Assembly: GCF_900101095.1 (NCBI RefSeq)
Contig: NZ_FNFM01000008.1
Location: forward strand, 62,001-126,000
Direction of reading: 5' to 3'
DNA length: 64,000 bases
Origin: Actinopolyspora mzabensis
GTDB lineage: Bacteria > Actinomycetota > Actinomycetes > Mycobacteriales > Pseudonocardiaceae
The translations under genes were made by a program, and so were the position numbers. The notes beneath the pieces are model-generated. The model was not told the origin of the DNA. It searched no databases and worked only from the letters and a program-made list of their open reading frames with translations. Positions 744 through 43,235 of this stretch are shown here, piece after piece (position 1 is the stretch's first letter; each line of letters opens with the position of its first letter).

Positions 744-945
744 CCGGCGATTTCTCGCGAAATCGCCGGGCCCTTGGTGCCCCCAAGGCCCCCACGCCCG
801 CAGGGCGAACTCCCATCACCCTCGCAGTTGGCACCGCCGCGGGGTCTCCGGTGCGGCTCCCGCGAGGGAGGTCCGACGTCGGGTAGGTCGCTACCCGATG
901 TCGGACCTCCCCGCAGCGAGAGCCGTGCCGGAGGGTCCGACACGG
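744..945 (+). repeat. Composite repeat copy 1: TTTC-N4-GAAA palindrome plus TAGGTCGCTAC hairpin
   Basis: The gap 533-973 between two convergent genes holds no credible gene. It contains a palindrome at 744-769 (11-bp arms, core TTTCTCGCGAAA). About 120 nt further on is a long hairpin at 868-909, with 19-nt arms that have one G-T pair; its apex reads TAGGTCGCTAC. Outer sequence (about 850-865 with 912-930) can extend the stem. Blocks across the whole unit recur at 43027-43235, including GCAGGGCGAACTCC, TCTCCGGTGCGGCT and GGTCGCTACCCGATGTCGG. The hairpin could also end transcription of both neighbouring genes. Confidence 0.85.
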
Positions 946-973
946 AACCCGCTACACAACGGAACAGGCGAAC

Positions 974-3556
974 CTACTCTTCCGAGAGGGCCGCGGCCGG
1001 TTGGGCCTTGGCAGCCCGTCGGGCGGGCAGGACCGAGGCCAGCACCCCCGCGGGGATCGCGCAAGCGATCACCAGCAGCAGCCGCGCCCAGGGCACGGCG
1101 AACGAGACCGGCAGTCCGATGTTCTCGAACATCGCCGCCACCCCGCCGAAGGCGAACAGCACTCCTACCAGGGCTCCCAGCACGGTTCCGACCACGGCCA
1201 GCAGCACCGCCTCCAGCGCCAGGGTCCCCCGCAGCTGACCACGGGTCAGCCCGAGCGCGCGCAGCAGTGCGGACTCCCTGCCGCGTTCCAGCACCGACAG
1301 CCCGAGCGTGTTGGCGATACCGACCACCGCGATGATCACCGCGACCGCCAGCAGAGCGGTGACGATCAGCAGCAGCGTGTCGAGCACCTGGGTGAACTGC
1401 GCACGCTTCTGCACCGCTCCCCCGAGATCTATGGGTGTCGAGGTGCTCTCCTCGGCCAACGAGTTCAGCTCGCCGGTGTAGCTCGGCGTGTAGGTGTCGG
1501 AGGTGGCACGGGCCCAGATCTCGGTGGTATCGGTCTCGGCCCCCGTGGCGGCCAGATCGGAACGGGTCAGCAGGAACCCGGATCGGATCAGATCGGTGGA
1601 CGCCAACCGGAACGTGGCGGAGCTCTCCCCGATGGGCAGCTCAACACGGTCCCCTTCCGACCAACCCCAGCTGTCGAGGATGTTGGAGGGCACCAGCGCT
1701 GTTCCCCGCTGAAGCTTCTCCGCACCATGCCGGGAGACCTCGGCGAGCTTCGCGGGGGCGATCCCCATTGCGCGGAAGGTCGCGGGAGGAATGTCCTCGC
1801 GGGAGGCTCCCTCGGGCATGCTCGTCTCCGGCCGCTCCATCTCGAAACTGGCGCCGGACAGGGCGGCGGTGGCGGCCGTGCCCTCCAGGGCCGCGAGGCG
1901 CTGCCCCACCCCTTCGGGAACCGGTTGGCCCCGCTCCTCGGCTACGATCTTCACGTCCACCGGGTAGCGCTGATCGATCTGCTCGTTGGCGCCGTTCCGC
2001 GCACTGGCGGTACCGGTGAGCAGCAGCACGATCAGCCCGACGCCGATCATCAGCGCGGTACTGGTGGAGGAGGCCCGGTAGGGATTGCGCACGGCATTGC
2101 CACTGGCGAGCGTGCCCGTGGGGCCGAGCGAACGCATCAGGTAGCCGAACGCCCTGGCGACCGCGGGAATGAGCGTGGGCGTGAACAGCAGCACTCCCAC
2201 CACGGCCAGGAGTCCGCCGGGCACCGCCATGGTCATCGATCCGAGCAGGGCACCGCCGAGCAGGAAACCAGCGCCCGCCACGGTGAACACCACGGCGGAC
2301 ACCAATCGCGCTCGACCGATCCGACGGGAGGCCTGCTCGTCCGGCACGGGACGCAGCGCGGCGAGCGGCGCGACCCGCATCGCGCGTGCGGCGGGGGCCA
2401 GCGAGGCCAGGAAGGTCACCAGCAGTCCGGCCGCCACGGGCGCGGTCAGCGCCAGCGGGGTAATACCGAGCGCGCCGAAGTCGACCGGGGAGTCGGTCAG
2501 CCCCAGTGGCCAGCTCACCGTGGCCGAGACCAGCACGCCGAACACCGTGCCGATCACCGAGGTGACCAGCCCCACCAGCAGTGCCTCGAACAGCGCCGAG
2601 CGGCGGATCTGTCCCCGGGTGGCCCCGACGCACCGCAGCAGTGCGTACTGCCTGCTGCGCTGGGCGTGCAGCACCGAGAAGGTGTTGACGATGACGAACC
2701 CTGCCACGAACAGCGCGATCGCGCCGAACGGCAGCAGTACGGCGTTCAGTGCGACGGCCACTCTCCCGCTGAACAACTTCACCGCGTAGTCGGCCTGCTG
2801 CTGTCCGGTTCGGACCTTGACGTATTGGCCGGCGTCGAGCTTGCCGCGCAGCCGGTCGAGCACCGCCGAGGTATCGGCTCCGTCGGCCAGCAGCAGGTCG
2901 ATCGCGCGGTATTCGGTTGTCCCGAGTTGGTTCAGCAGCCCCTGGGGGGCGAAGACCGTGATGCGGCTGCCACCCGTGAGCACGTTGCTCCCGATGTCGA
3001 CCAGCCCCGAGACGGTGACCTCGCGCTTCGGCGGTGCCTTCTCGCTCTCTTCCTCCCGAGCCGAGACGTATCGCGGCTGCTGGAGGGTAAGGGTGTCTCC
3101 GGGAGAAAGATTCGCCGAGTCGGCGGCGCGCTCGCTGAGCACCACCTCGTCCGCGGCGTCCGCATAGCTGCCCTCAGCGAGCTCGTACCAGCGCAGTGCC
3201 TGTTGCTCGGGCAGCCGGTTCAGCTCCACCGAGTACCGCTCGCCCTTCCAGGAGGCATTGGCGTAGCTCTCGGTCCTGGGGACGGCCACGTCGACACCTT
3301 CGGTGTCCCGAACCTTCCGCAGGCGTTGCTGTCTTTTGTCGTTCTCGTTCCCCTCGGCGACCCTCGCCATTTGGTCGTCTACCACGACGTCGGCGGCCAG
3401 GTTGGGTGCTGCCACCATGTGCCGCACCGAGGACTGCATGGTGCCGGTGAACACGAGAGTGGCGGCGACGAATCCGACGCCCAGCACGATGGCGAGTCCG
3501 GCCGCCGTGAGCCGTCCGATGTTGTGTCGCAGTTGCAGCAGGGTGTTGCGCAGCAC
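974..3556 (-). CDS. FtsX-like ABC transporter permease (MacB-type)
   Basis: This is an 860-residue integral membrane subunit of an ABC exporter of the FtsX/MacB superfamily. An N-terminal transmembrane segment (about residues 15-37, GLAIVLGVGFVAATLVF) is followed by a large extracytoplasmic domain to about 250. A first FtsX domain with three helices lies near 270-400, a central pair of helices near 420-475, a second outer domain, and a second FtsX domain near 735-850. This duplicated layout is normal for actinobacterial permeases paired with a single ATPase. The GTG start lies 6 nt after the stop of the ATPase gene, with GGTGGGTGAGGG upstream, so the two are co-transcribed and probably coupled. 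The substrate is unknown; relatives export peptides or lipids or act on the envelope. Confidence 0.9.
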   Translation of the reverse strand: MLRNTLLQLRHNIGRLTAAGLAIVLGVGFVAATLVFTGTMQSSVRHMVAAPNLAADVVVDDQMARVAEGNENDKRQQRLRKVRDTEGVDVAVPRTESYANASWKGERYSVELNRLPEQQALRWYELAEGSYADAADEVVLSERAADSANLSPGDTLTLQQPRYVSAREEESEKAPPKREVTVSGLVDIGSNVLTGGSRITVFAPQGLLNQLGTTEYRAIDLLLADGADTSAVLDRLRGKLDAGQYVKVRTGQQQADYAVKLFSGRVAVALNAVLLPFGAIALFVAGFVIVNTFSVLHAQRSRQYALLRCVGATRGQIRRSALFEALLVGLVTSVIGTVFGVLVSATVSWPLGLTDSPVDFGALGITPLALTAPVAAGLLVTFLASLAPAARAMRVAPLAALRPVPDEQASRRIGRARLVSAVVFTVAGAGFLLGGALLGSMTMAVPGGLLAVVGVLLFTPTLIPAVARAFGYLMRSLGPTGTLASGNAVRNPYRASSTSTALMIGVGLIVLLLTGTASARNGANEQIDQRYPVDVKIVAEERGQPVPEGVGQRLAALEGTAATAALSGASFEMERPETSMPEGASREDIPPATFRAMGIAPAKLAEVSRHGAEKLQRGTALVPSNILDSWGWSEGDRVELPIGESSATFRLASTDLIRSGFLLTRSDLAATGAETDTTEIWARATSDTYTPSYTGELNSLAEESTSTPIDLGGAVQKRAQFTQVLDTLLLIVTALLAVAVIIAVVGIANTLGLSVLERGRESALLRALGLTRGQLRGTLALEAVLLAVVGTVLGALVGVLFAFGGVAAMFENIGLPVSFAVPWARLLLVIACAIPAGVLASVLPARRAAKAQPAAALSEE

Positions 3557-3562
3557 TGGCCC

Positions 3563-4390
3563 TCACCCACCCAACCGGCGCAGCGAGTCGAGCACCGCTT
3601 CCTGCGTGGGCTCCTCGATCCGGCCCGCGATGTTGCCGTCGGCCAGCAGCACCACGCTGTCCGCGTGGGACGCGGCGACCGGGTCGTGGGTGACCATCAC
3701 CACGGTCTGGCCGAACTGGCGTACCGAGCCGCGCAGGAACTCCAGCAGGTTCGCGCCGGACTTCGAGTCCAGCGCACCGGTGGGTTCGTCGGCGAAGACG
3801 ACCTCGGGGCGTGTTACCAGTGCGCGGGCCACCGCGACCCGCTGCTGCTGCCCGCCGGAGAGTTCGCTGGGCCGGTGGCGCAACCGCTGGTCGATGCCCA
3901 ACGACTCGGTGAGTTCGTTCAGCCACTGCCGGTCGGGTTTGCGACCGGACAGCTCCAGCGGCAGCAGGATGTTCTGCTCCGCCGTCAGGGTGGGCAGCAG
4001 GTTGAACGACTGGAACAGGAAGCCGATCCTGTCACGTCGCGTGAGGGTGAGCTGCTTGTCCGAGAGACCGGTCAGGTCGGTCTCTCCCAGCATCACCCGA
4101 CCCGAGGTAGGGGTGTCCAACCCGGCCAGGCAGTGCATCAGGGTGGACTTGCCGGAGCCGGAGGGCCCCATGATCGCGCTGAACCGTCCGCCCGCGAAGC
4201 CGATGTCGACGTTGTCCAGCGCGCGGACTCCTGCCTCACCACTACCGTAGACCTTGACCAGTGCCGATCCGCTGGTGGCGGGAGCGGGCTCCGATTCGGC
4301 GAGTTGGCCGGCGAAGCCGTGCTGTCCGTTGCCTCCGCCCTGTTCCGAAGGGGCGGCCGCGGGTTGCTGCGACCCGTTCGGGAAACTCAC
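3563..4390 (-). CDS. ABC transporter ATP-binding protein (LolD/MacB-type)
   Basis: This 275-residue nucleotide-binding subunit partners the downstream FtsX-like permease. Walker A is GPSGSGKST at about residues 75-83, the signature is LSGGQQQRVA, and Walker B is VVFADEPTGALDS, the sequence typical of the LolD/MacB export subfamily. The H-loop appears as MVTHDP. I chose the GTG at 4390 (V-S-F-P-N-G), which has GGGGG six bases upstream; the open frame continues further but without family similarity. The first 40 residues (Gln, Ala, Gly-rich) precede the ABC domain and look disordered. The upstream gap suggests this gene is first in a two-gene operon. Confidence 0.92.
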   Translation of the reverse strand: MSFPNGSQQPAAAPSEQGGGNGQHGFAGQLAESEPAPATSGSALVKVYGSGEAGVRALDNVDIGFAGGRFSAIMGPSGSGKSTLMHCLAGLDTPTSGRVMLGETDLTGLSDKQLTLTRRDRIGFLFQSFNLLPTLTAEQNILLPLELSGRKPDRQWLNELTESLGIDQRLRHRPSELSGGQQQRVAVARALVTRPEVVFADEPTGALDSKSGANLLEFLRGSVRQFGQTVVMVTHDPVAASHADSVVLLADGNIAGRIEEPTQEAVLDSLRRLGG

Positions 4391-4755
4391 GTGATTCCCC
4401 CATCGTGGTAACTGGATTACGAAACTGACTCTAACGTGACACTCCGAACACGGGGTGCCACGCATAACGTTCGGAAGGTGTGCGAAGAAACGGCCCCGGG
4501 CGGTCGATTCCCACGGCCACCTCGGGCGGGGAGCAGCACCGAGAGCGCACGGCGAGGAACTCGGCGGATTCACTCGGAACGCGTTCCCCGGGCCGCTCCG
4601 CGGGCCTTGGCGACTCTCCGGTGTGCACTGTCCCCAGTAAACCGGCCGGACTCGTGAACCACTTCCGGGAAGACCCCCAGACACCCCGGAATCTCCCCGG
4701 AGGGAACCCCGACGCGGGCGCTCCCCGAAGCGGACATTCCGGGGAGAGGGCGGTT
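4391..4755. other. Intergenic region upstream of the ABC exporter operon
   Basis: No gene was found in these 365 bases. The part nearest the ABC gene is relatively AT-rich (4400-4480) and probably holds its promoter. A short inverted repeat GTAAC-TGGA-TTAC lies at about 4408-4420. Nothing else could be identified. Confidence 0.4.
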
Positions 4756-7041
4756 TCACGCGGGAGTGAACCGGCGCAACCGCAGACTGTTGGAGACGAC
4801 GAACGCCGAGGACAGCGCCATGGCCGCACCCGCGATCAGCGGGTTGAGCAGTCCGCACACGGCCAGCGGCACGGCGGCCAGGTTGTAGCCGAACGCCCAA
4901 ACCAGGTTCCCCCGGATGGTGCCGAGCGTCCGCCTGGCGAGTTTCACCGAGTCCGGCACCGCCGTCAGTTCCTCGCGCACCAGGATGAGGTCGGCCGCCG
5001 AGATGGCCACGTCGGTGCCCGCACCCACGGCGAGCCCCAGTTCCGCCGTCGCCAGGGCGGGCGCGTCGTTGACCCCGTCGCCGACCATCGCCACCCGGCG
5101 TCCTTCGGCGCGCAGTCCTTCGACCGCCTCGACCTTCTGGTCCGGGAGCACGTCGGCCACGACCTCGCCGATCCCCACCTCCTCGGCGACGGAACGGGCC
5201 GTGGCCTCGTTGTCACCGGTCAACAGCACGGTCCGCATCCCGAGCCGCCGCAGCTCGGCCACGGCGGCCGGGGCGGAGGACTTGACCGCGTCGGCGAGCC
5301 CGAGCACCGCCACCACGACCCCGTCCCGCGCGACGAGGACGGTGGTCCTCCCGCTGCGCTGCCACTCCGCGTGGTGTCGCCGCACGTCCTCCGGAACGGT
5401 GATCCCGTTGTCGGTGAACAGCTTCACCCTGCCTGCCAGCATGTGGTGCCCGTCCACCTCGCCGTGCGCGCCCAGGCCGGGATCGTTGCCGAATCCCTCG
5501 ACAGCGGGCAGTTCCGCACCCTCCCCGAGTTCGGCGCGCGCGGCGGAGGTGATCGCGGCGGCGACCGCGTGCTCGGAGGCGTGCTCCAGTCCGCCCACCA
5601 GCCGAAGCACCTCGGAGCGCGGCACACCGGCGACGCAGTACACATCCCCGAGGGTCATGCTGCCGGTGGTGACCGTGCCGGTCTTGTCGAACACCACCGT
5701 GTCCACCGTCCTGGTGGCTTCCAGTGCCTGATACCCCTTGAGGAAGATGCCGAGCTGCGCGCCACGGCCGGAAGCGGCCATCAGGGCGGTCGGCGTGGCC
5801 AGCCCCAGCGCGCACGGACACGCTATGACCAGCACCGAGAGCGCGGCCGTGACGGAACGCTCGGCCGAACCGCCGAGCAGCAGCCAGCCCAGCAACGTCA
5901 GCACTGCCAGGCCGAGCACGGCGGGCACGAAGTAGGCCGAGATCCGGTCCGCCAACCGCTGGACGGCGGCCTTGCCGCTCTGCGCCTGCTCGACCAGCCG
6001 CATCATCCCCGCGAGCTGGGTGTCCCGGCCGACCCTGGTGGCCTCGGTGAGCAACCAGCCGGTGGTGACCGTGGTTCCTCCGGTGACCTCGTCGCCCTCG
6101 ACGACCTCTGCGGGCACCGACTCCCCGGTCATCGAGCTGCGGTCCACGGCGGCGCCGCCCCGCACCACGCGCCCGTCGGTGGCGATGGTTCCGCCGGGGC
6201 GGGTGACGAACCGGTCCCCCACCCGCAGTCGTTCGACCGGGACTTCCCGATGCGTGCCGTCCTCGTCCTGCACCAGGGCGGTCTTTGCGCCGAGCCGGGC
6301 GAGGGCGCGCAACGCGCCGCCCGCCCTGCGCTGCGCCTTGGCCTCGAAGTAGCGCCCGGCAAGCACGAAGGTGGTCACGCCGGCCGCCACTTCCAGGTAA
6401 GCGGCTCCGTCGGTGTTGAGCAGCAGCCAGAGCCCGGAGGCATCGGCGGGCGCCCCGCTCGGCGCGAACATCGCGTAGAGCGACCACACGCTCGCCGCGG
6501 TGATCCCGATGGAGACCAGCGTGTCCATCGAGGAGGCACCGTGCCGGGCGTTGCGCAGCGCGGCGCGGTGGAACGGCCAGGCCGCCCAGCCCGCCACGGG
6601 AAGCGCGAGCGCGATGATCAACCACTGCCAACCGGGAAAGCGCGCCTCGGGCAGCACCGTGAACAGGATCGCCAGGTCGGCCAGCGGCACGAACAGCACG
6701 ACCGAGACGACCAGCCTGCGCCACAGCTCGCGCAGCCTGGCTCGGGAATCGTCCGGGCTCTCCTCGGCGGGGCGCAGCACCTCGGCCTCGTACCCGGCCT
6801 TCGTGACCGTCTCGGTAAGCAGCTCGTCGGCGGCGCCCGCGGGGGCGGTGACGCTGGCACGGGCGGCGGCGTAGTTGACGCTGGCGTGCACCCCGTCGAG
6901 TTTGTTGAGCTTGCGCTCCACCCTGGTGGCGCACGCCGCGCAGGTCATACCGCTGACGGCCAGCTCGACACTCCGTTGTTGTTCGGCGGAGCTGCGCTGC
7001 TGTTCGGCGGACTCGGTTGAGGTGTCCGCGGACGTCGTCAT
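4756..7041 (-). CDS. Heavy-metal P1B-type ATPase, Cu(I) exporter type
   Basis: This 761-residue copper-type P-ATPase has one N-terminal heavy-metal domain (GMTCAACATRVE, about residues 30-45). The membrane metal site is CPC in VIACPCALGLATPTA, the phosphorylation site is DKTGT, and the hinge is MVGDGVNDAPALA. The helix 7-8 signatures FGYN and AMALSS...VVSNSLRLR are those of P1B-1 Cu(I) pumps. The nucleotide-domain motif reads SEHA where SEHP is expected. I chose ATG 7041 (M-T-T-S) because AAGGTGG lies just upstream; a GTG 24 nt earlier (7065) is in frame. It follows the anti-sigma gene by 73 nt on the same strand, so the two probably form an operon. In M. tuberculosis SigC is linked to the copper-type ATPase CtpB, and a SigC-like gene is divergent here. 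Confidence 0.93.
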   Translation of the reverse strand: MTTSADTSTESAEQQRSSAEQQRSVELAVSGMTCAACATRVERKLNKLDGVHASVNYAAARASVTAPAGAADELLTETVTKAGYEAEVLRPAEESPDDSRARLRELWRRLVVSVVLFVPLADLAILFTVLPEARFPGWQWLIIALALPVAGWAAWPFHRAALRNARHGASSMDTLVSIGITAASVWSLYAMFAPSGAPADASGLWLLLNTDGAAYLEVAAGVTTFVLAGRYFEAKAQRRAGGALRALARLGAKTALVQDEDGTHREVPVERLRVGDRFVTRPGGTIATDGRVVRGGAAVDRSSMTGESVPAEVVEGDEVTGGTTVTTGWLLTEATRVGRDTQLAGMMRLVEQAQSGKAAVQRLADRISAYFVPAVLGLAVLTLLGWLLLGGSAERSVTAALSVLVIACPCALGLATPTALMAASGRGAQLGIFLKGYQALEATRTVDTVVFDKTGTVTTGSMTLGDVYCVAGVPRSEVLRLVGGLEHASEHAVAAAITSAARAELGEGAELPAVEGFGNDPGLGAHGEVDGHHMLAGRVKLFTDNGITVPEDVRRHHAEWQRSGRTTVLVARDGVVVAVLGLADAVKSSAPAAVAELRRLGMRTVLLTGDNEATARSVAEEVGIGEVVADVLPDQKVEAVEGLRAEGRRVAMVGDGVNDAPALATAELGLAVGAGTDVAISAADLILVREELTAVPDSVKLARRTLGTIRGNLVWAFGYNLAAVPLAVCGLLNPLIAGAAMALSSAFVVSNSLRLRRFTPA

Positions 7042-7114
7042 CCGACCACCTTTCGTGCGGTTCACCGCGACGGGCGAAACTACCTCCAGCTTGAACCATG
7101 CCGTCCGTCACGTC

Positions 7115-7870: not shown

Positions 7871-8062
7871 ACCGTGCTGGTCGTCGGTGACCTCCCGCTG
7901 GTTCCCGGCTCCCGCGCGGGGAGATCGGCGGGACACGCGTATCGTGCTGCACGGTAACGACGGTTCACGCCCGACTAGTCGGCACCGCCGCGGCTTACGT
8001 GGTCGAGTGAGCCGCACAACCGTGGCAGCGGGCGCGGGCCCGAAGTTCATTGGATATTGGGC

Positions 8063-8629: not shown

Positions 8630-8699
8630 CGCTTTTCCGCTCGTAGCCGGGGCTGCGGTCGGCCGGGGACGGCCGTATCGAGCGGCTTCGCTCGGGTGA

Positions 8700-10070
<1,371 letters not shown>

Positions 10071-10083
10071 TTCGACGCGATTC

Positions 10084-17950: not shown

Positions 17951-18141
17951 GGCGATTTCGTGGGAAATTTACGCACCCGGCGCCGCATCGCCGCCCCTGA
18001 GACTGCCGTCGGAAAGTCACCGTGGTCGCGGCAGCGTGGGTGTCTCGAGCGCGTGAGTCGGATGCATCGCCAGGCCGGGCCGCTCGCCGCCTAGGTCGCT
18101 ACTCAAGAGCCGGCCCGACGCTCCCAAGGCGCCGACTCACG
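17951..18141 (+). repeat. Composite repeat copy 2, with 90-nt hairpin unit at 18052-18141
   Basis: A degenerate palindrome (17951-17970, CGATTTCGTGGGAAATT) is followed 82 nt later by a 90-nt unit bounded by CGTGAGTCGG and its inverse CCGACTCACG. Near its middle is TAGGTCGCTAC (18092-18102), and GGGCC/GGCCC segments can pair internally. The same 90-nt unit occurs inverted at 20689-20778 with four mismatches. No target-site duplication is visible. It lies between the convergent sodF and MFS genes. Confidence 0.88.
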
Positions 18142-18186
18142 TGCCGGCCACCCGGCCAGGGCACCCCACACTCACCCGCGAACGAG

Positions 18187-18216
18187 AAGCCCCCGGCCCC
18201 ACGGACCGGGGGCTTT
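18187..18216. terminator. Hairpin terminator between convergent sodF and MFS genes
   Basis: AAGCCCCCGG pairs perfectly with CCGGGGGCTT across a short loop, and TTTC follows on the plus strand. It could serve both directions. Confidence 0.72.
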
Positions 18217-18260: not shown

Positions 18261-18279
18261 TTAGGTTAGCCTAACCTGC
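18261..18279. promoter_or_regulatory. Iron box (DtxR/IdeR-type operator) at the 3' end of the MFS gene
   Basis: TTAGGTTAGCCTAACCT is a perfect 15-bp palindrome extended by two bases. It agrees with the DtxR/IdeR/DmdR consensus TTAGGTTAGGCTAACCTAA at 16 of 19 positions. It overlaps the stop codon of the minus-strand MFS gene, and no gene starts beside it on either strand. The match is strong but the position is unexpected. Confidence 0.6.
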
Positions 18280-19602
18280 TTTCTCCGGCAACCCCGCGGA
18301 GCCGCTCTCCCGGTCCGAGTTCCGTGCCAGCACGATGGCACCCATCAGGCTCGCCAGCACCACGGCGACACCGCCCAGCAACAACGGCGCTCTGCCGTTG
18401 AAGATCTCCGCCAACCAGCCGGAGAGCAGCCCTCCGACCGGTCTGCCCCCGAGGAACAGCATCATGTAGAGCCCCATGACCCTGCCTCGCATCTCCGGGT
18501 CCACGGAGAGCTGCACAGTGGAATTGGCCGCCGTGGTGCAGGTCATCACGGCGATCCCGACGGGGATCAGCGCCACCGCGAAGCTGCGGTAGGAGGGCAT
18601 CAGCGAAGCCGTCGCCTCGAGGGCTCCGAACGCGGCTGCACCACCGAAGACCAGCCGCAACCGAGGCCGCCCACCTGCCCTCCGCGCGGCCAGCGAGGCA
18701 CCGGTGAGCGTGCCCACCGCCAGTGCTGTGATCAGCAAGCCGTATCCGGCGGCATCCCGGTCGAACACGTTGCGCGCGATCACCGCGAAGGCGTTCTCGA
18801 AGTTCATCCCGAACGTGCTCACGCAGCAGACCAGCGCCAGCACCACGATCAGCCGTGGACTCCGCGAGACGTAGCGCAGTCCCGCCAGGAGACTGCCGCT
18901 CCCCTCCGTGTTTCCCGAGGTCCGGTGCAGCCTGCTCGGGTCCATCAACAACAGACCGGCCACCACGGCGCCCGTACTCAACCCGTTGAGCAAAAAGACC
19001 GGCCCCGTACCGATCAGGGTTATCAGCACACCGGCGATCGCGGGACCGACGATGCGGGCGAGATTGAAGGTCATCGAGTTGAGGGCGACCGCGTTGGGCA
19101 GTTCCCGGGCCCCCACCATCTCGACCACGAAGGACTGCCGCACCGGGGCGTCGACGGCCGAGAAGCACCCCAGCCCCAGTGCCAGCGCGTAGACGTGCCA
19201 GAGCTCGACCACACCGCCGACGTCGAGCAGCCCCAGCACCACGCCGCACAGCCCCATCCCGCTCTGCACCGCCAGCAGCAGTCGACGCTTGTCGACCCGG
19301 TCGGCGATCACTCCGGCGTAGAGCGTGAACAGCAGCGTGGGCAGGAACTGCAACGCGACCGCCACCCCCAGCGCGGCCGGCGACCCGTCGGAGAGCTCGA
19401 GCACGAGCCAGTCCTGCGCGGCGCGCTGCATCCAGGTACCGGTCAGCGAGACTACCTGCCCGGAGGCGTAGTAGCGGTAGTTGCGTTCCCGCAGCGAACG
19501 AAACATCCCGCCGCGCGCCCGCCCGGCAGTGGATTCATCCGATACGGATGAGCGACTGCTCCGCTCCGGCCTGTCGGACTCCTGCTGGGCGGATTTGGAC
19601 AT
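18271..19602 (-). CDS. MFS transporter, EntS-like (MFS_3) exporter
   Basis: This is a 443-residue, 12-helix major facilitator of the EntS/MFS_3 type. The marks are RNYRYYASGQVVSLTGTWMQRAAQDWLVLELS at helix 1 (quoted here only as the first 10 and last 10: RNYRYYASGQ...DWLVLELS), GVIADRVDKRRLLL in the loop 2-3 motif, and DAPVRQSFVVEMVG in the central part. A 30-residue hydrophilic leader precedes helix 1. EntS-type proteins export siderophores or drugs. An iron box overlaps the stop codon, which is suggestive but not placed to regulate this gene. It follows marR on the same strand (gap 101 nt) and is probably controlled by it. The pair may correspond to Rv0880 and Rv0876c. Confidence 0.88.
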   Translation of the reverse strand: MSKSAQQESDRPERSSRSSVSDESTAGRARGGMFRSLRERNYRYYASGQVVSLTGTWMQRAAQDWLVLELSDGSPAALGVAVALQFLPTLLFTLYAGVIADRVDKRRLLLAVQSGMGLCGVVLGLLDVGGVVELWHVYALALGLGCFSAVDAPVRQSFVVEMVGARELPNAVALNSMTFNLARIVGPAIAGVLITLIGTGPVFLLNGLSTGAVVAGLLLMDPSRLHRTSGNTEGSGSLLAGLRYVSRSPRLIVVLALVCCVSTFGMNFENAFAVIARNVFDRDAAGYGLLITALAVGTLTGASLAARRAGGRPRLRLVFGGAAAFGALEATASLMPSYRSFAVALIPVGIAVMTCTTAANSTVQLSVDPEMRGRVMGLYMMLFLGGRPVGGLLSGWLAEIFNGRAPLLLGGVAVVLASLMGAIVLARNSDRESGSAGLPEKAG

Positions 19603-20333: not shown

Positions 20334-20636
20334 GTGGCAGCGGACGACAACGACGCTCCCACCGGACCGCCCCGGATGCGCCCGGTCCCCTCCCTCCCGG
20401 CGAAACTCGCGGGCCCGACTCCGGTCGTGATCACCGGCACGGTGTGCTGGCTGGTGGCCGCCGTGGTGTTCGGCATGCTCGGCTGGACGGGCTCGGGTGT
20501 CGACGTACGGTTCTGGACCTGTGTTACCGGTGGTGCGCTGGGGATAATCGGCTACGGTGTCTTTCGCTGGCAGCGCTCGGCCTCGCGTCGCGGTTCCCGC
20601 GGTTCCTGGCAGGGACTCGCCGGACTCGACGGCTGA
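20334..20636 (+). CDS. DUF2530 small membrane protein
   Basis: This 100-residue protein has a Pro-rich cytoplasmic head and two hydrophobic helices (VVITGTVCWLVAAVVFGMLGW and FWTCVTGGALGIIGYGVF), then a basic tail WQRSASRRGSRGSW. It matches the actinobacterial DUF2530 family, and Rv0879c holds the corresponding place beside the MarR gene in M. tuberculosis. GTG 20334 has AGAGGA six bases upstream. It is divergent from marR and convergent with the large ATPase gene. The function is unknown. Confidence 0.8.
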   Translation: MAADDNDAPTGPPRMRPVPSLPAKLAGPTPVVITGTVCWLVAAVVFGMLGWTGSGVDVRFWTCVTGGALGIIGYGVFRWQRSASRRGSRGSWQGLAGLDG

Positions 20637-20688
20637 CATCTTTCGGAACCCATAGCAGCACCTGCCGTACGTGGCCGGTTAGCCGTCA

Positions 20689-20858
20689 CGTGAGTCGGCG
20701 CCTCGGGAGCGTTGGGCCGGCTCTTGAGTAGCGACCTACGCGGCGAGCGGCCCGGCCTCGCGATGCATCCGACTCACGCACCGGGGACACGCACGCTGCC
20801 TACCCGCATGGTCGCTTCCCGACGACGGTCTCCGGCGCGGCGATTTCGCGCGAAATCG
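20689..20858 (-). repeat. Composite repeat copy 3, inverted relative to copy 2
   Basis: The 90-nt unit at 20689-20778 is the reverse complement of 18052-18141 with four mismatches and keeps the same terminal CGTGAGTCGG/CCGACTCACG arms and the TAGGTCGCTAC core (20728-20738). A perfect palindrome CGATTTCGCGCGAAATCG lies at 20841-20858, 62 nt beyond, on the same side of the unit as in copy 2. Weaker similarity to copy 2 continues between the two parts. The element fills the gap between the convergent DUF2530 and sacsin-like genes. Confidence 0.9.
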
Positions 20859-28749: not shown

Positions 28750-29742
28750 ATGAGCAGCACCGCGGCGGACCGAAACCCGGCACAGCGCACCGACTTCCAC
28801 TCGCTGCGCGCGGGTGGCGTCAACTGGGACGCGTTACCACTGCGGCTGTTCGACAAGGGCAACGCGAAGTTCTGGAACCCGGCCGAGATCGACTTCAGTC
28901 GCGACGCCGCCGACTTCCGAGAACTCACCGAGCAGGAACAGCAGGGGGTAGCGCTGCTCTGCGCCCAGTTCATCGCGGGCGAGGAGGCGGTCACCGAGGA
29001 TCTGCAGCCGTTCATCTCGGCGATGGGCTCCGAGGGACGGTTCGCCGACGAGATCTACCTCACGCAGTTCGCCTTCGAGGAGAGCAAGCACACCCAGGGG
29101 TTCAGACTCTGGCTGGACGCCGTCGGCCTCACCGAGGACCTGCATCCGTACGTGGCGGAGAACCCGGGTTACCGTGCGATCTTCTACGAGGCCCTGCCGG
29201 AGTCGCTGAACACGCTGCACCGGGACCCGAGCCCGGCCAACCAGGTGCGCGCCTCGGTTACCTACAACCACGTCGTGGAGGGAACACTGGCGCTGACCGG
29301 CTACTACGCCTGGAACAAGATCTGCAAGGAACGCGACATCCTGCCCGGCATGCGGGAACTGATCCGCCGGATCGGCGACGACGAACGCCGTCACATGGCC
29401 TGGGGAACGTTCACCTGCCGCCGACACGTGGCAGCGGACGAGCGCAACTGGGAGCTCGTGCAGCAGCGGATGGACGAGCTGTTGCCCTACGCGGTCGAGC
29501 AGATCCAGTGGCGCCCCGACTGGGCGGGCGACCAGGAACCGTTCGGTCTCGACCTCGACGAACTCTCCGCCTACGCCTCCGACCGAGCGGGCAGGCGACT
29601 TGGTGCGATCTCGGCGGCACGGGGGGTCGACGTGGCGAGCATCGACGTGGACGCCGCCCCGGAACGGTTGGAGGAGCAGTTCGGCGCGGAGGACGCCGCG
29701 GTGCTGGAGCGGATCGCCCCGGGCGAGGCGAACGGTTCGTGA
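28750..29742 (+). CDS. R2-like ligand-binding oxidase (R2lox)
   Basis: This 330-residue ferritin-like protein is very similar to M. tuberculosis Rv0233, a homologue of ribonucleotide reductase R2 that is not a reductase subunit. R2lox proteins carry a Mn/Fe cofactor, bind a fatty-acid-like ligand and form a Val-Tyr ether cross-link. Ligand residues can be read at E79 (AGEEAVTED), E111 and H114 (FEESKHTQ), E177 (VVEGTL), and E212/H215 ([12 protein letters not shown]). The cross-link pair would be V81 and Y172, with the 91-residue spacing of the characterised enzyme. The start ATG 28750 has GAAGGTGAAA upstream. The native substrate is unknown. Confidence 0.94.
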
Positions 29743-29762: not shown

Positions 29763-29784
29763 GTCGATTTCGCGCGAAATCGAC
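29763..29784. repeat. Solo perfect 22-nt palindrome of the TTTC-N4-GAAA family
   Basis: This is a perfect palindrome with core GATTTCGCGCGAAATC, 21 nt after the R2lox stop codon. No TAGGTCGCTAC partner is found within 200 nt. Confidence 0.9.
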
Positions 29785-30720: not shown

Positions 30721-30738
30721 CGATTTCTCGCGAAATCG
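30721..30738. repeat. Solo palindrome of the TTTC-N4-GAAA family
   Basis: CGATTTCTCGCGAAATCG, with the same TCGC centre as copies 1 and 4. It lies within about 15 nt of the point where similarity to a hydrolase gene begins. Confidence 0.88.
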
Positions 30739-30749
30739 CCGATGGTCCG

Positions 30750-34094: not shown

Positions 34095-34222
34095 CGGCGC
34101 GGCGGGACGACACGGCGGAAGGGTCGGCTGCGCTGCGAACCGACCGCGAAACCGGAACTCCCCCGGAAAACTGGGGGATTCTCCCCGAACCGGCCCACAC
34201 CGGGAGCTGGCATCGTGGTGTC

Positions 34223-35726: not shown

Positions 35727-35733
35727 CCCTCGA

Positions 35734-38529: not shown

Positions 38530-38930
38530 CGCCCACCTCCGGGGGTCTCGATCACCACGGCGGTGGACTTGACCACGGCCACCGCCAGCACTCCAGGGCG
38601 GAGCCCGAGATCGGTCACCGCTTCGGTGCTCAACAGCGAAACCACCCGCTGCGAGCCGCACTGGAGCTCCACCTGCGACATGACGGTGTCCGAGGTGACC
38701 TCGGTGACCAGCCCGACGAAACGGTTGCGCGCGGAACGCTCGATCCCGGAGGGGTCGCGGGCGGCTCTGGCTCTGGCGCGGGCGAATTCGGCCAGCACCG
38801 AGCCCTCCACCACCAGGCGCCCGGAACCGTCCGACTCGGCGGGCAGTTGCTGCGCGTCGACCCAACGTCGAACGGTGTCGTCGCTGACCCCGAGCAGTTC
38901 CGCTGCTTCGGAAACACGATATTGCGGCAC
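38526..38930 (-). CDS. HTH-Mop (ModE-like) molybdate-responsive regulator
   Basis: This 134-residue protein joins an N-terminal excisionase/MerR-like helix-turn-helix (YRVSEAAELLGVSDDTVRRWVD) to a C-terminal single Mop/TOBE domain (RNRFVGLVTEVTSDTVMSQVELQCG...LGLRPGVLAVAVVKSTAVVIETP) that binds molybdate. As the first gene of the modABC operon it probably represses molybdate uptake when molybdate is abundant. The start is GTG 38930 (V-P-Q-Y-R) or GTG 38939. Neither has a ribosome site; TAACGT ends six bases before 38930, so the message may be leaderless. It is divergent from moaA. Confidence 0.85.
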   Translation of the reverse strand: MPQYRVSEAAELLGVSDDTVRRWVDAQQLPAESDGSGRLVVEGSVLAEFARARARAARDPSGIERSARNRFVGLVTEVTSDTVMSQVELQCGSQRVVSLLSTEAVTDLGLRPGVLAVAVVKSTAVVIETPGGGR

Positions 38931-39115
38931 GAAACACACGTTAAACTCGTGAATGCGGTTTGATCCAGCGGTTTTGTTCCGCTTCCACGGATCTAAAACA
39001 ATTTCGTGTTTTTCTCCGAACTCCGCGCGGCCGCGGCCTTACCGATTGAGCCCACCGGCACAAAACCGGTTCGTGCGATCGAATTCGCCCCGACTTGGCG
39101 GTTACGCTGAGCGGT

Positions 39116-40174
39116 GTGACTTCCGTGGACCTGGGCATCCCGGTCGCCCGCCGGACGATCGACACGTCGGCGCGTCCGGATACGCCGTACCTGGTCGACC
39201 GCTTCGGACGGATCGCGACCGACCTGCGGGTGTCCCTGATAGACAAGTGCAATCTGCGCTGCACCTACTGCATGCCCGCCGAGGGTTTGCCGTGGATGAA
39301 GCGGTCCGAGATGCTCGACACCGGGGAGATGATCCGGCTCATCGAGCTCGCGGTGCGCGAACTCGGAGTTACCAACGTCCGCTTCACGGGTGGTGAACCG
39401 TTGCTGCGGCAGGACCTGGTGGACATCATCACCGCCACCAGCGAGTTGCCGCAGGCTCCCAAGACCTCGCTTACCACCAACGGCATCAACCTCGGCAGGT
39501 TCGCCGAGCAGCTGGCCACCGCCGGGCTGGACCGGGTGAACATCTCGCTGGACACCCTGGATCGGGAGACGTTCCACCGGCTGACGCGCCGGGACCGGTT
39601 CGACGACGTGCTGGACGGACTGCGTGCGGCCAAGGACTCCGGACTGGAACCGGTGAAGGTCAACGCCGTACTGCTGCGGAACACCAACGATCACGAGGCG
39701 TGCGATCTGCTACGGTTCTGCCTGGAACGGGGCTATCAGCTGCGGTTCATCGAACAGATGCCGCTGGATCCACAACACGGCTGGGACCGCGAGGAGATGA
39801 TCACCGCGGACGAGATCCTGCGGATGCTGGGTGAGGAGTTCACCCTCACCCCGTACAGCGCCGAACGAGGTTCGGCTCCGGCCGAACGCTGGCTCGTCGA
39901 CGGTGGGCCCGCCACGGTCGGAGTGATCGGCTCGGTCACCAGACCGTTCTGCGCCACGTGCGACCGCACCAGGTTGACGGCCGACGGACAGCTGCGCTCC
40001 TGCCTGTTCTCGCAGACCGAGACCGACCTGCGTGACCCCATGCGGGAGGGCGCCGACAACGAGGAACTCGCCCGACTGTGGCGGGAGACCATGTGGGCCA
40101 AGGCCGCCGGTCACGGCATGGACGAGGAGGGCTTCGCGCAGCCTTCCCGCCCGATGAGCTCGATCGGCGGTTAG
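39116..40174 (+). CDS. moaA: GTP 3',8-cyclase MoaA (radical SAM)
   Basis: This 352-residue radical SAM enzyme carries out the first step of molybdenum cofactor synthesis, converting GTP to 3',8-cyclo-GTP. The N-terminal cluster motif is CNLRCTYCMPAEG, followed by VRFTGGEPLLRQDLV. The C-terminal cluster Cys residues are in RPFCATCDRTRLTADGQLRSCLF (Cys of FCATC and SCLF). The essential C-terminal Gly-Gly is present (SSIGG). I chose GTG 39116 (V-T-S-V-D) because TACGCT ends seven bases before it, consistent with a leaderless message; the open frame extends seven codons further. The gap shared with the mod operon is AT-rich and probably holds both promoters. Confidence 0.94.
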   Translation: MTSVDLGIPVARRTIDTSARPDTPYLVDRFGRIATDLRVSLIDKCNLRCTYCMPAEGLPWMKRSEMLDTGEMIRLIELAVRELGVTNVRFTGGEPLLRQDLVDIITATSELPQAPKTSLTTNGINLGRFAEQLATAGLDRVNISLDTLDRETFHRLTRRDRFDDVLDGLRAAKDSGLEPVKVNAVLLRNTNDHEACDLLRFCLERGYQLRFIEQMPLDPQHGWDREEMITADEILRMLGEEFTLTPYSAERGSAPAERWLVDGGPATVGVIGSVTRPFCATCDRTRLTADGQLRSCLFSQTETDLRDPMREGADNEELARLWRETMWAKAAGHGMDEEGFAQPSRPMSSIGG

Positions 40175-40294
40175 AACTTTCCCAAGCGCTGCTCGCCCGA
40201 TGGGCCGGGCGGCACCGACCGGCGCGCGTCCGGACACCCGGGTCGACAGGGCATCCGACGAGCCGATACGGCATCCCGAAAGGACTTCCGGCCG

Positions 40295-40645
40295 ATGATG
40301 GACGACCGGCAAGAAGCACAGCTCGTCCCCCCGGAGCCCGTGGAATCACCGCCGGCGGGCTCCGCCGCGGCGGCGACGGTCGCGGTGCGGGTGCGGTACT
40401 TCGCGGGAGCGCGCGCGGCGGCCGGAATCGCGGAGGAGACGCTGCGGGTGAGCCCGAGCGCCGCTGCGAGGCCGGTGTCCGCGGCTGACGTGATCCGAGC
40501 CGTGCTGGCGGCGCACGAGGAACCGTTGGCCCGGGTCGTCCGAGCGTGCGGTTTCCTGCTCGACGGGGTGGCCGTGCGGGACGAGGCCGTGCCGGTTCCG
40601 GACGGAGCCGAGTTCGACGTGTTGCCGCCGTTCGCGGGCGGCTGA
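40295..40645 (+). CDS. moaD: Molybdopterin synthase small subunit MoaD
   Basis: This ubiquitin-like sulfur carrier of 116 residues becomes thiocarboxylated on its C-terminal Gly-Gly (PPFAGG) and donates sulfur to the pterin with MoaE. The core is VAVRVRYFAGARAAAGIAEE and VRACGFLLDGVAVRDEAVPVPDG, with EFDVLPPFAGG at the end. A hydrophilic 25-residue leader precedes the fold, longer than usual. ATG 40295 (or 40298) has AAAGGA about 12 bases upstream. It is 120 nt after moaA, as in M. tuberculosis moaA2-moaD2. Confidence 0.9.
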   Translation: MMDDRQEAQLVPPEPVESPPAGSAAAATVAVRVRYFAGARAAAGIAEETLRVSPSAAARPVSAADVIRAVLAAHEEPLARVVRACGFLLDGVAVRDEAVPVPDGAEFDVLPPFAGG

Positions 40646-41171
40646 GCGGGTCCGCATCGTGCCGACTCCCCCGCCCCTCGACTTCGCACCAGCGGCTGTC
40701 GAGCACAGCCTGCGAACCCCCTGGCTGCGAACCCCCTGACTGGTAATCCCCGAGTGGGCCCCCGGCTGGGACAACAGCGACGTGGAACCGACACGCCGGA
40801 GGCCATGTCTCGGCGTGTCCGACTAGCTCTTTTGTGTGATTTTACCGGGATCTCACCGCCGAGTTTCCGACGCCACGTCTTCCGCATTCCACAACCGGGT
40901 GAGGGATCACCCGATGAACCGTTTTCGACCGCGCTTCGCGACCACCGAACAGCTGTGAGTGTCGGAACCGTCCGGCGCGCAACTTCCTTCCACACGGCGA
41001 CAAAAAATGACAGAGTGGACCTACCACACTGGATCTGTGGAATCGAAACCGGGTCTGCAAAGGTGACTCAGGCCTCACCGCGAGTGATCGATATCGACTC
41101 GGAAACGGCTTGATAACAACGCCGTGCGCTGCACAAATACCCCTGATCGAGTGACCCCGAAACCATGTTAC
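40646..41171. other. Intergenic region between moaD and rpfA, upstream part
   Basis: No gene is recognised. TGCGAACCCCCTG occurs twice close together (about 40708-40740). From 40820 the sequence is unusually AT-rich for this genome, as expected for a long regulatory region. The rpfA-proximal part is described under the CRP site and the riboswitch. Confidence 0.4.
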
Positions 41172-41187
41172 TGTGACTAGCGTCACA
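41172..41187. promoter_or_regulatory. Perfect CRP-type operator TGTGA-N6-TCACA upstream of rpfA
   Basis: TGTGACTAGCGTCACA matches the CRP/GlxR/Cmr consensus exactly. It lies 245 nt before the rpfA start codon and about 35 nt before a possible -10 box (TACTGT, 41222-41227). In M. tuberculosis, rpfA is a known target of the CRP protein Rv3676. Confidence 0.78.
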
Positions 41188-41269
41188 TTCCATTAAGTTT
41201 CCGTTCGCTCGCGCGATTACGTACTGTTCCCATCGGTCGGCCCCGAACCGGCCGGAACAACGAAAAACC

Positions 41270-41425
41270 GGGAAGTCCGCAGCGCCGAGCTCTGCCCGGC
41301 GGGCTTCCTACCCCCGAACGAAACGAAACCGGGCAGGGACGGGAAACCACTGGAGTCCCCCGAAGCTCCACGGAATCCGGGTTCTCTTCGGAGCCGCCGG
41401 AAATCCCGCAGGCGCGGCAGGAGAG
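41270..41425 (+). ncRNA. Probable c-di-AMP (ydaO/yuaA) riboswitch in the rpfA leader
   Basis: The leader is structured and contains blocks like those of actinobacterial ydaO elements: GCCGAGCTCTGCCCGG, GGGACGGGAAACCACTGG, CGGAATC, and CGCAGGCG near the end. Helices visible by eye are CTGCCCGG (41292-41299) with CCGGGCAG (41329-41336), TGGAG with CTCCA (41351-41355 and 41366-41370), and a closing GCGCC/GGCGC pair (41282-41286 and 41411-41415). rpfA of streptomycetes and mycobacteria is known to carry this riboswitch. Boundaries are approximate. Confidence 0.55.
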
Positions 41426-41431
41426 AGGGAC

Positions 41432-42097
41432 ATGGCTCGTTACAAGGGCAAGCATCGTAAGTCGTCGAATTTCACTCGCAACGCTGCCCGGGTGGCCGTC
41501 GCGGGTGCTGTGGTGGCCACGCCGCTCGCGGTGGCCGCTCCGGCCAGTGCCGCGGACTGGGACGAACTCGCCCAGTGCGAATCCAGCGGGGACTGGCACA
41601 TCAACACCGGAAACGGTTTCTACGGCGGCCTGCAGTTCACCCCTTCGACGTGGTCGGCCTTCGGCGGTGACCAGTACGCGCCGAACGCCCACCAGGCCAG
41701 CCGTGCCGAGCAGATCGCCATCGCCAAGAAGGTACTGGCCCAGCAGGGTCCCGGTGCCTGGCCGGGCTGCACCGCCAAGACCAACTGGGTCAGCGGCAGC
41801 ACGGACAGCGCGGGCACCGTCTCCGAGGACTCCGCCGCCCAGGAACAGGCAGCCGCGCCGCAGGAATCCGCCCCGAAGCAGGAGCAACCCGCCGAGACCG
41901 AGTCGGACTCCGGGCAGCAGTCCCAGCAGTCCACGGTGCGTTCGAACGGCGCCGACTACACCGTCCGCTCCGGCGACACGCTGAGCGAGATCGGCAAGCA
42001 GTTCGGCGTGAACTACCAGGACATCTACGAGCGCAACAGCGACGTCCTGGAGAGCGCCGACCTGATCTTCCCGGGTCAGCAGCTCGACATCCGCTGA
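41432..42097 (+). CDS. rpfA: Resuscitation-promoting factor with LysM domain
   Basis: This 221-residue secreted peptidoglycan hydrolase promotes regrowth of dormant cells. A signal peptide ending ASAADWDELA is cleaved after about residue 41 (A-S-A). The catalytic Rpf domain follows: WDELAQCESSGDWHINTGNG with the catalytic Glu in QCESSG, YGGLQFTPSTWSAFGG, and QIAIAKKVLAQQGPGAWPGC. A Gln/Glu/Ser-rich linker (about 130-170) leads to a C-terminal LysM domain (DYTVRSGDTLSEIGKQFGVN...IFPGQQLDI). ATG 41432 has GGAGAGAGG upstream. The gene sits between moaD and moaE functions, as in M. tuberculosis. Expression is likely controlled by CRP and the leader riboswitch. Confidence 0.96.
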   Translation: MARYKGKHRKSSNFTRNAARVAVAGAVVATPLAVAAPASAADWDELAQCESSGDWHINTGNGFYGGLQFTPSTWSAFGGDQYAPNAHQASRAEQIAIAKKVLAQQGPGAWPGCTAKTNWVSGSTDSAGTVSEDSAAQEQAAAPQESAPKQEQPAETESDSGQQSQQSTVRSNGADYTVRSGDTLSEIGKQFGVNYQDIYERNSDVLESADLIFPGQQLDIR

Positions 42098-42118
42098 TGA
42101 CGCGGTAGCCGAAACACG

Positions 42119-42143
42119 GCCGGGCTCCACAGCGGAGCCCGGC
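42119..42143 (+). terminator. Hairpin after rpfA
   Basis: GCCGGGCTCC pairs perfectly with GGAGCCCGGC over a 5-nt loop, 21 bases after the rpfA stop codon. There is no T-run. Confidence 0.7.
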
Positions 42144-42384
42144 GCCCGGACGCGAACCGGTTCTCGGGATCGAGGGAGCGAGCACCGGCCCGGCTTTAGC
42201 CGGGAGCGCGGAAGCCGGGCAACCGAAGCTCGGGGCCTCGTCGCCTTCCCCCAGCGGCGGGGCCCCGTTCTTGTCCGTCGCACGGCCCCTCACTGGCTCA
42301 CACGGCTCTTCGGAGGCGGTTGGACATCCTTTCGGCCGCGGCACCAGAATGGATCATGGTTCCGGGGCGAGCGAAGGGAACGCA

Positions 42385-42958
42385 GTGCTCGAAGCCGTAC
42401 TCCGGGCGGTGGTTACACCCGCTTCGATGGCAGTGTTCGTGGTGCTGGCGCTACTGGGGGGTGCGCTGCACGGCAGGCTCGCACGAGCCGCCGGAACGCG
42501 AAAGATCCCGACCCTGGCCGCGACGACAGCACTGGCCGCCGGGACGGCGGTGACTCTCACCCCGCAGAGCGGACCTGAGTTCGGCCTGTCCGCGCGCCGG
42601 ATCTTCGCCTGCCCACTCGGTTGGCCGGACAGCTCGGGACTGCTGGATCTGCCCATGCCGACCCAGAGCTCGTTGAACTCGCTGGTGCTGCTGCCGTTCG
42701 GGGTGTGCGCCGGGTTGGCCGTACGGGATCGGTTGCAAACGGCCGCTGTCGTGGCTGTGATACTGCTGTTGCCCGCCCTGGTGGAGGCCAGTCAGGGGTT
42801 CACGCTGTTCGTTCGGCACTGCAAGCACGCAGGACTGGTTCGACAACGTCAGCGGCGGACTGTTGGGGCTGGCACTGGTGCTGCTCGTGCGAGCGATCAT
42901 CGGAGCGTTCCCCGGCGCGCGACGCCGCGACGGTTCGAGTACCGAACAAGGACGGTGA
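42385..42958 (+). pseudogene. VanZ-like membrane protein gene, disrupted by a +1 frameshift
   Basis: The frame from GTG 42385 (with GAAGGGA upstream) encodes a VanZ-like protein with helices VTPASMAVFVVLALLGG, TTALAAGTAVTL and LNSLVLLPFGVCAGLAV and the motif LPALVEASQGFTLF. After HC near 42822 the frame changes. In the next frame the expected ending STQDWFDNVSGGLLGL, ALVLLVRAIIGAFPGARR follows, stopping at 42958. One extra A at about 42823-42824 explains the shift. VanZ-like proteins are small polytopic proteins linked to glycopeptide or envelope tolerance. A real pseudogene or a sequencing error are equally possible. It is the only gene between rpfA and the Mog-MoaE gene. Confidence 0.82.
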
Positions 42959-42974
42959 GCCCATGCGGGCGGCT

Positions 42975-42992
42975 CGATTTCTCGCGAAACCG
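42975..42992. repeat. Solo palindrome, TTTC-N4-GAAA family, one arm mutated
   Basis: CGATTTCTCGCGAAACCG, 35 nt upstream of a second member that belongs to composite copy 4. Confidence 0.8.
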
Positions 42993-43026
42993 CGGGCCGA
43001 TGGGTCGGTGCGGTCCCGGCTGGCGT

Positions 43027-43235
43027 CGATTTCTCGCGAAATCGCCGCGCCGCTTCGACGCAGGTCGAGCTCCGAGCACCCTCGCAGGGCGAACTCCGAC
43101 CACCCTCGCCACCGGCGCCGCCGCGGGTTCTCCGGTGCGGCTCTCGCGAGGAAGGCCCGACGTTGTGTAGGTCGCTACCCGATGTCGGGCCTCCCGCAGC
43201 GAGGGCCGTGCCAGAGGTTCCGCCACCCGCACCGC
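43027..43235 (+). repeat. Composite repeat copy 4, direct repeat of copy 1
   Basis: A perfect palindrome CGATTTCTCGCGAAATCG (43027-43044) is followed 124 nt later by TAGGTCGCTAC (43168-43178), at the apex of a hairpin with arms 43153-43170 and 43175-43192 that has three mismatches. The flanks match copy 1 in several blocks, such as GCAGGGCGAACTCCGACC, CTCCGGTGCGGCT and GCAGCGAGGGCCGTGCC. It fills the gap between the convergent vanZ-like and mog-moaE genes. The whole 42959-43262 interval holds no gene. Confidence 0.88.

Follow-up and report, generated by a model that had tools for sequence, protein, structure and literature searches.

Long hairpin repeats with a REP-like foot, mostly placed behind stop codons, in Actinopolyspora and other Pseudonocardiaceae

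Repetitive extragenic palindromic (REP) sequences tagged with GTAG/GTGG or CGTC have been reported to lie mainly between unidirectional and convergent open reading frames (ORFs), near 3' ends (PMC3733652), and a published REP search rule asks for GTAG or GTGG 0-2 nucleotides (nt) 5' of a secondary structure (PMC6006769). IS200/IS605-type enzymes are expected to act on the lagging-strand template, which is the strand co-oriented with the replication fork (PMC6006769). Here, four elements are described from a 64,000 nt stretch of the Actinopolyspora mzabensis genome (contig NZ_FNFM01000008.1, positions 62,001 to 126,000; hereafter the window), in each of which a long hairpin of one of two types (A or B) is accompanied by a short palindrome with the core TTTC-N4-GAAA (P). 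A sequence-only reading had placed these elements exclusively between convergent genes, and had known of no described family with these parts. The latter statement is too strong, since GTAG/GTGG- and CGTC-tagged REP palindromes are already published (PMC3733652). The former does not hold in the genome at large, where the element is, for the most part, tied in fixed orientation to the stop codon of one gene, and not to convergence.

Within the window, inspection of the sequence, motif counts and shuffles place the four composite elements where they had been reported, gene calls and Pfam assignments of the flanking pairs put all four between convergent genes, and the gene calls return the same total of 11 convergent gaps. 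The motif TAGGTCGCTA occurs four times in the window (both strands) and ATTTCN4GAAAT six times, and neither occurs in 100 dinucleotide shuffles. The whole genome (G000; 5.0 Mb in 24 contigs) contains 75 copies of TAGGTCGCTA versus 7 of a reversed control, and 254 of ATTTCN4GAAAT versus 0 for the control. Genes were called with a home-made codon-pair gene finder, except where checked against Pfam, and the 1.70 Mb analysed for TAGGTCGCTA includes all 75 copies. These are split over 39 convergent, 33 tandem and 3 divergent gaps, and the restriction to convergent gaps therefore fails. On the strand carrying TAGCGACCTA, the 5' neighbour is a same-strand gene in 63 of the 75 copies; the distance from its stop codon to the motif is 57-101 nt in 52 of these 63, for both types.

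Covariance models were used to detect the hairpins independently of this motif: R1 for type A (104 positions) and R2 for type B (115 positions), both matching end to end. The searches took in 45 of 86 stretches of the own genome. Matches in 884,525 bases (contigs C3, C4 and C13:1-300000), counted from 28 bits for type A and from 59.9 bits for type B, one per place and with weaker rows and opposite-strand duplicates dropped, gave a set of 61 elements, 40 of type A and 21 of type B. The TAG core is present in 28 of them; TAGGTCGCTA is only one of the alleles of the apical loop. The convergent-only claim fails here also (26 convergent, 33 tandem and 2 divergent gaps): 59 of the 61 are intergenic in tandem or convergent gaps, the gap types and 3'-end location of REPs. 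In 39 elements, 20 of them in convergent and 19 in tandem gaps, the start falls 15-60 nt past a stop codon on the same strand, a class that averaged 3.2 and never exceeded 10 in 2000 random placements. The comparison of gap orientations with a control, which had been proposed from the sequence alone, does return a convergent excess when gaps are weighted by intergenic length (26 elements versus a simulated mean of 11.7 and a maximum of 24). The excess vanishes once gene 3' ends are the unit of counting, since elements occupy 23 of the 244 that are convergent and 23 of the 267 tandem gaps with a length of 100 nt and above. Some convergent gaps contain two elements, head to head. Such pairs were seen at C13:136128/136345, C14:472296/472511 and C15:352583/352801, around a third palindrome of the form AAGCGGC...GCCGCTT.

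Structural constraint on type A is evident across genera. In a covariation test with 500 shuffles 92% of its cells pair, and no shuffle matched the cells paired, the two-sided cells or the covariation score; of the weaker measures, two-sided pairs were reached by 4 and further pair types by 32 of the 500 shuffles. A cross-genus alignment of 35 rows (27 main and 8 weaker extra matches), fitted to the model structure, has two-sided changes at 24 of its 34 pairs, and not one of 500 shuffles equalled it on any of the five measures. Single copies fold as one long hairpin (z below -2 in six of seven tested), and for many of the hairpins the model finds a match on each of the two strands. GTGG or GTAG is located one base 5' of the hairpin in 25 of 36 scored copies of type A and 22 of 36 of type B, so that the majority of copies carry the foot of the REP search rule; a GTRG foot is also present in 24 of 27 type A copies from other genera. 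The leader of 20-40 nt between stop and hairpin, as well as the 3' trailer, look as if composed of consecutive short units, each with GTGG or GTAG at its end, which are possibly the seams of repeated insertions.

Orientation relative to the replication fork was assessed in four single-contig genomes, with dnaA as origin, using the best 107 of 131 matches in G005, the best 43 of 140 in G003, the best 101 of 117 in G022 and, in G021, all 22 that passed a cut-off of E 1e-6 (33 passed 0.001). Among the matches listed, the sense strand is co-oriented with the fork in 73 of 107 (G005), 32 of 43 (G003), 22 of 22 (G021) and 81 of 101 (G022). The bias towards the lagging-strand template, as expected of IS200/IS605-type systems, is therefore seen in all four genomes, partly among the matches listed. 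Genes in the stretches lie on the fork strand at 126 of 239 (G005), 35 of 69 (G003) and 40 of 73 (G022). Among elements pointing against the fork, five of six assessable cases nevertheless come after a stop codon on their own strand, so that orientation to the gene is kept more strictly than orientation to the fork, which amounts to a bias. Also, the one-fifth of the chromosome at the greatest distance from dnaA is nearly empty of type A, with 1 of 107 (G005) and 0 of 43 (G003) among the matches listed.

Type A was recovered by R1 in all 10 genomes of the genus, with 3 matches in G007 and at least 65 in each of the other nine, and in six other genera of the family with 7-61 matches (117 in G022 with a wider list); no type A was found in the other 45 genomes of the same search. 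Type B is confined to the genus and G022 among the 41 genomes searched with R2 (a set without G050 and G051), with 34-60 matches in nine genomes of the genus and 2 in G007. The latter, the smallest genome of the genus, is nearly repeat-free, with 3 copies of A, 2 of B, 2 of P and 1 of TAGGTCGCTA. When named genomes were scanned for the pattern, 80 of at least 120 stretches were used, from Saccharopolyspora, Amycolatopsis, Prauserella and Halopolyspora. Of the 82 matches listed there, 58 have a same-strand 5' neighbour, 44 of these at 25-52 nt from the stop, and 4 have no 5' neighbour in the stretch. A class-wide search of 393 other genomes gave no match at E 1e-6, a weak negative for spread beyond the family, since ten candidates were scored per genome. 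No element was found in phages or plasmids by blastn with one element as query.

Elements are gained, lost and exchanged between close relatives, as revealed by comparing contig C4 with syntenic stretches of G005, G006 (92% identity), G003 (86%) and G008 (82%). The gap beside moaE is occupied in all five genomes. Of the nine sites occupied in both G000 and G005, five carry a different type (A versus B), and four of nine do so for G006; one of the five G000/G005 swaps involves a weak partial match, the type B of G000 at C4:158095 (59.9 bits). Three sites of G000 lack a detected element in G005 and three in G006, while one element of G005 and two of G006 are undetected in G000. Absence here means a score below the model cut-off, and not all absences are empty sites, since degenerate remnants exist at the orthologues of C4:14450. 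A chimera at L065:16377-16523 consists of a type B 5' half and a type A 3' half joined at TAGCGACCTA. At C4:106809 an element is present in G003 and G008 and none in the other three genomes, where the gaps measure 93-94 nt, and the orthologue of C4:130871 carries type B in G008 and, by eye, a terminator-like hairpin after the stop in G000, G005 and G006. Element-free gene ends often carry strong local hairpins where elements otherwise sit: among 219 ends in element-free gaps, 28% have, no more than 110 nt from the stop, a 44-nt segment that folds at -25 kcal/mol or lower, versus 4% of 76 divergent upstream regions (contigs C3 and C4). Gene ends in element-holding gaps reach this value in 7 of 43 cases (16%), which speaks neither for nor against a terminator role. 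The same gene end bearing hairpin A, hairpin B or neither in close relatives constitutes a natural experiment on 3'-end exchange.

The palindrome P and the hairpin, which the sequence-only reading had described as a single design of a TTTC-N4-GAAA core and a TAGGTCGCTAC hairpin, do recur together in this genome and in two close relatives, and they are separable. Of the 75 TAGGTCGCTA copies, 44 have a TTTC-N4-GAAA within 250 nt and 31 do not. The 884 kb contain 108 such palindromes, 58 of them more than 300 nt from any of the 61 elements, and the remaining 50 all lie on the 3' side of the nearby element, with distances clustering at about +55-64 and +79-89 nt. A palindrome follows within 250 nt downstream in 41 of the 61 elements, in 10 of 11 in the G005 stretch and in 11 of 12 in G006, versus only one of six in G003 and one of nine in G008. 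Pairing is a clade feature. G008 has no ATTTCN4GAAAT genome-wide, yet seven looser TTTC-N4-GAAA in 160 kb, and the counts of TAGGTCGCTA and ATTTCN4GAAAT are uncoupled over the 10 genomes of the genus (G008 60/0, G004 29/2, G001 63/415). A single inseparable element is ruled out by the lone palindromes and by G003 and G008. Soon after the hairpin, 8 of 14 elements examined from other genera have, by eye, a different short palindrome of AAGCGGC or ATGCGCC type; an AAGCGG-type palindrome is near only one of nine elements in G008.

P itself resembles the CGTC-tagged REPs in its CGTC (or TGTC/CCTC) end, its 4-nt loop, its many copies and its occurrence sometimes in pairs (PMC3733652). A strict CGTC is found at one end of 94 of 161 palindromes, at both ends of 4 and at neither end of 63, with TGTC or CCTC at no fewer than 24 further ends; an unpaired tag at one end is shared with those REPs. 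In 22 of the 24 cases that could be scored, the tag faces away from the hairpin. Compared with the reported stem of 8-9 bp with A-T as first and second pairs and a loop of 4-5 nt (PMC3733652), P has, by eye, a stem of 6-7 bp, shifted by one base, a loop of 4 nt and a G or A before ATTTC, and its host phylum is outside the five listed in that survey (PMC3733652). Palindromes are often paired 52-53 nt apart (C4:47338/47390 and C3:172630/172683, among others), sometimes at about 33 nt. P would be another REP-like repeat, with a CGTC tag, whose spread took place within a single clade of the genus and which often lies some 60 or 85 nt to the 3' side of the hairpins.

The hairpins share with GTAG-tagged REPs the GTAG/GTGG foot, many dispersed intergenic copies and several types per genome (PMC3733652, PMC6006769), and a location mostly in unidirectional and convergent gaps, close to 3' ends (PMC3733652). 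They differ from them in size (104-115 nt versus 20-40 bp), in an internal architecture conserved across genera, in their mostly fixed orientation to the upstream gene and in four carrier genomes without a Y1 match; their hosts are actinomycetes, while the word 'Actinobacteria' appears 0 times in the main text of the 2013 survey (PMC3733652). With IS200/IS605 elements they have in common a hairpin strand biased to the lagging-strand template and a hairpin with a tetranucleotide guide (PMC6006769), and are distinguished by having no linked transposase gene and no autonomous copy among those found. Intrinsic terminators are likewise strong hairpins situated within tens of nt downstream of a stop codon; the elements are much longer, repeated and sequence-conserved, with no U tract in the folded copies. 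No Y1 or RAYT gene flanked by the same repeats was found in the nine genomes searched. Since the elements behave like REPs but depart from them in size and in the linked Y1/RAYT gene, they are set apart from REP membership. A partial coverage of the literature on Actinopolyspora, Saccharopolyspora and Pseudonocardiaceae yielded no description of them.

We give an even chance to the explanation that the hairpins are an oversized REP-like repeat of Pseudonocardiaceae, mobilised as single strands and kept in the terminator slot as a 3' end. The repeat would be copied, now or formerly, by an HUH-type enzyme acting on the folded single-stranded lagging-strand template, on the model of IS200/IS605 and TnpA(REP). 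Insertions would be retained in the interval from the stop codon to where the gene's own terminator lies, since the transcribed hairpin may serve there as the 3' end, either as a terminator or as an exonuclease block. The findings suggest that a REP-like repeat may reach about 100 nt, be conserved across genera and be held at a set orientation and distance to stops.

Several observations weigh against this explanation. The elements are 104-115 nt long, 3-5 times longer than REPs and outside their size range of 20-40 bp. For 12 of the 61 the 5' neighbour is a gene on the opposite strand, whose start is 41-64 nt away in five cases; an opposite-strand 5' neighbour also occurs in 20 of the 82 matches listed in the named genera. 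Type B has two-sided changes in 1 of 25 pairs, its copies being too alike to test well, and one of three folded type B copies has a z of only -1.2. The folded hairpins end, by eye, without a U tract. At the foot, 12 of the 36 type B copies carry TTAG and 8 of the 36 type A copies carry TTGG. The fork bias is weaker in G005 (73 of 107, from the best 107 of 131), and the gene-strand control covers stretches of three of the four genomes, G005, G003 and G022. Y1 transposase (PF01797) had no match in four of nine genomes (G022, G008, G023 and G051), and the remaining five have 11 Y1 loci, some of them fragments of a single gene, at which no convincing element was found; weak matches there numbered one per model (E 0.05 and 0.03). 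A transposase flanked by elements is thereby ruled out at the 11 Y1 loci of the nine genomes searched. No transposase was recognised by eye among the predicted proteins of the longer gaps of relatives, no family search being made.

A purely selfish, single-strand-mobilised repeat without function, whose location at gene ends reflects the purging of insertions from genes and promoters, is a possible alternative. Uneven copy numbers in the genus (3 A and 2 B in G007 versus at least 65 A and 34-60 B elsewhere), the gain, loss and exchange between close relatives and the REP-like foot are all in accordance with it. However, neutral insertions in 3' flanks should fill the whole gap, and the distance to the stop is narrow both here and in other genera.

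More doubtful, and put forward tentatively, is a replication-coupled family of large hairpins occupying a post-stop site in several actinomycete genera and moved by an enzyme other than RAYT/Y1, with A and B as interchangeable 3'-end cassettes that replace native terminators. G022 has no Y1 match yet 117 type A matches, and the fork orientation there raises the question of the moving enzyme. The hosts include genera known for antibiotic producers, and defined 3' ends would be useful parts in them.

An unlikely explanation is that the hairpin is a cis-acting regulatory RNA of the 3' untranslated region, marking regulon-like mRNAs whose tail is bound by a protein or small RNA via internal loops and an apical GUAG-N4-CUAC hairpin. 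It would account for the conserved unpaired and apical positions within covarying stems and for the mostly fixed orientation to the gene. Against this, close relatives carry the elements at different genes, no pathway shared by the four host genes of the window is apparent from Pfam, and the apical sequence varies between genera. Searches with Rfam 15 gave no match above the gathering score in the window and five loci in other genera, the sub-threshold ones, MIR918 (E 0.0013, 30 bits versus 268) and IRES_Bip, being taken as chance; a known structured RNA family is ruled out for the window and these five loci.

The sequence-only reading had proposed an RNA or DNA function where transcription collides or a mobile element. 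Mobility and RNA functions such as termination or processing were the right kinds of idea; collision as the organising principle does not stand. An element serving convergent transcription, as a bidirectional terminator or in topology control, is very improbable: the excess in convergent gaps by intergenic length and the hairpins that match the model on both strands would fit it, but tandem gaps are equally occupied per 3' end and hold 33 of the 61 elements, and each element is oriented to one gene. Convergence as organising principle is ruled out by these equal rates. Scarcely credible is a folded single-stranded recombination site of the integron attC kind, exchanged by a site-specific recombinase, which the long imperfect hairpin after stops, its fixed orientation, the A/B exchange at the same gene end and the chimera joined at TAGCGACCTA might recall, but the hairpin base has by eye no attC-type R boxes and the gene order around the elements is kept in the compared contig, so that they do not move as cassettes.

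Three of the four elements of the window start 35, 39 and 41 nt past a stop, and the fourth at 116 nt, behind a terminator-like hairpin. The first, a type A hairpin at 835..938 (- strand; R1 match L048:2835-2938 (-), 108.4 bits), begins 35 nt past the stop of an FtsX-like permease gene (974-3556, -; Pfam FtsX), folds as RNA at -76.9 kcal/mol (z -7.2) and has P, here GGCGATTTC-N4-GAAATCGCC, on its 3' side at 746..767. A type B hairpin at 18040..18154 (-; L049:40-154 (-), R2, 114.8 bits), the copy with the fold z of only -1.2, starts 116 nt past the stop of an MFS gene (18271-19602, -; Pfam MFS). Between them, a GC-rich inverted repeat at 18190..18212 (-), similar to an intrinsic terminator, looks by eye like the gene's own terminator; P, with degenerate flanks, lies on the 3' side at 17955..17968. 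The second type B hairpin, at 20676..20790 (+; L049:2676-2790 (+), R2, 139.5 bits; -64.3 kcal/mol, z -4.2), starts 39 nt past the stop of a DUF2530 gene (20334-20636, +; Pfam DUF2530) and is followed on its 3' side by P at 20843..20856. The last, of type A, at 43119..43221 (-; L050:5119-5221 (-), R1, 125.6 bits; -58.5 kcal/mol, z -4.6), starts 41 nt past the stop of a Mog-MoaE gene (43263-44249, -; Pfam MoCF_biosynth and MoaE), with P on its 3' side at 43029..43042 and a degenerate second copy of P 52 nt from it, at 42977-42990.

Two further palindromes of the window occur without a hairpin element: one at 29767..29780, in a same-strand (tandem) gap 24 nt past the stop of a ribonucleotide-reductase small-chain-like gene (28750-29742), and one at 30723..30736 in a convergent gap. 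Most of the flanking genes named earlier are backed by Pfam, namely CtaG and FtsX at the first element, Fe/Mn superoxide dismutase and MFS at the second, and DUF2530 at the third, where the sacsin-like partner has a weak match below the cut-off. The VanZ-like neighbour of the fourth element is likewise a match below the cut-off. The nearest confident gene to the left of this element is a transglycosylase-LysM gene (41432-42097, +), which we take to be resuscitation-promoting-factor-like. The VanZ-like frame (42271-43170, +; Pfam E 0.035) spans the palindrome and half of the element and terminates on the TAG within TAGGTCGCTA, so that the element would now provide the stop codon, should the frame be a genuine gene.

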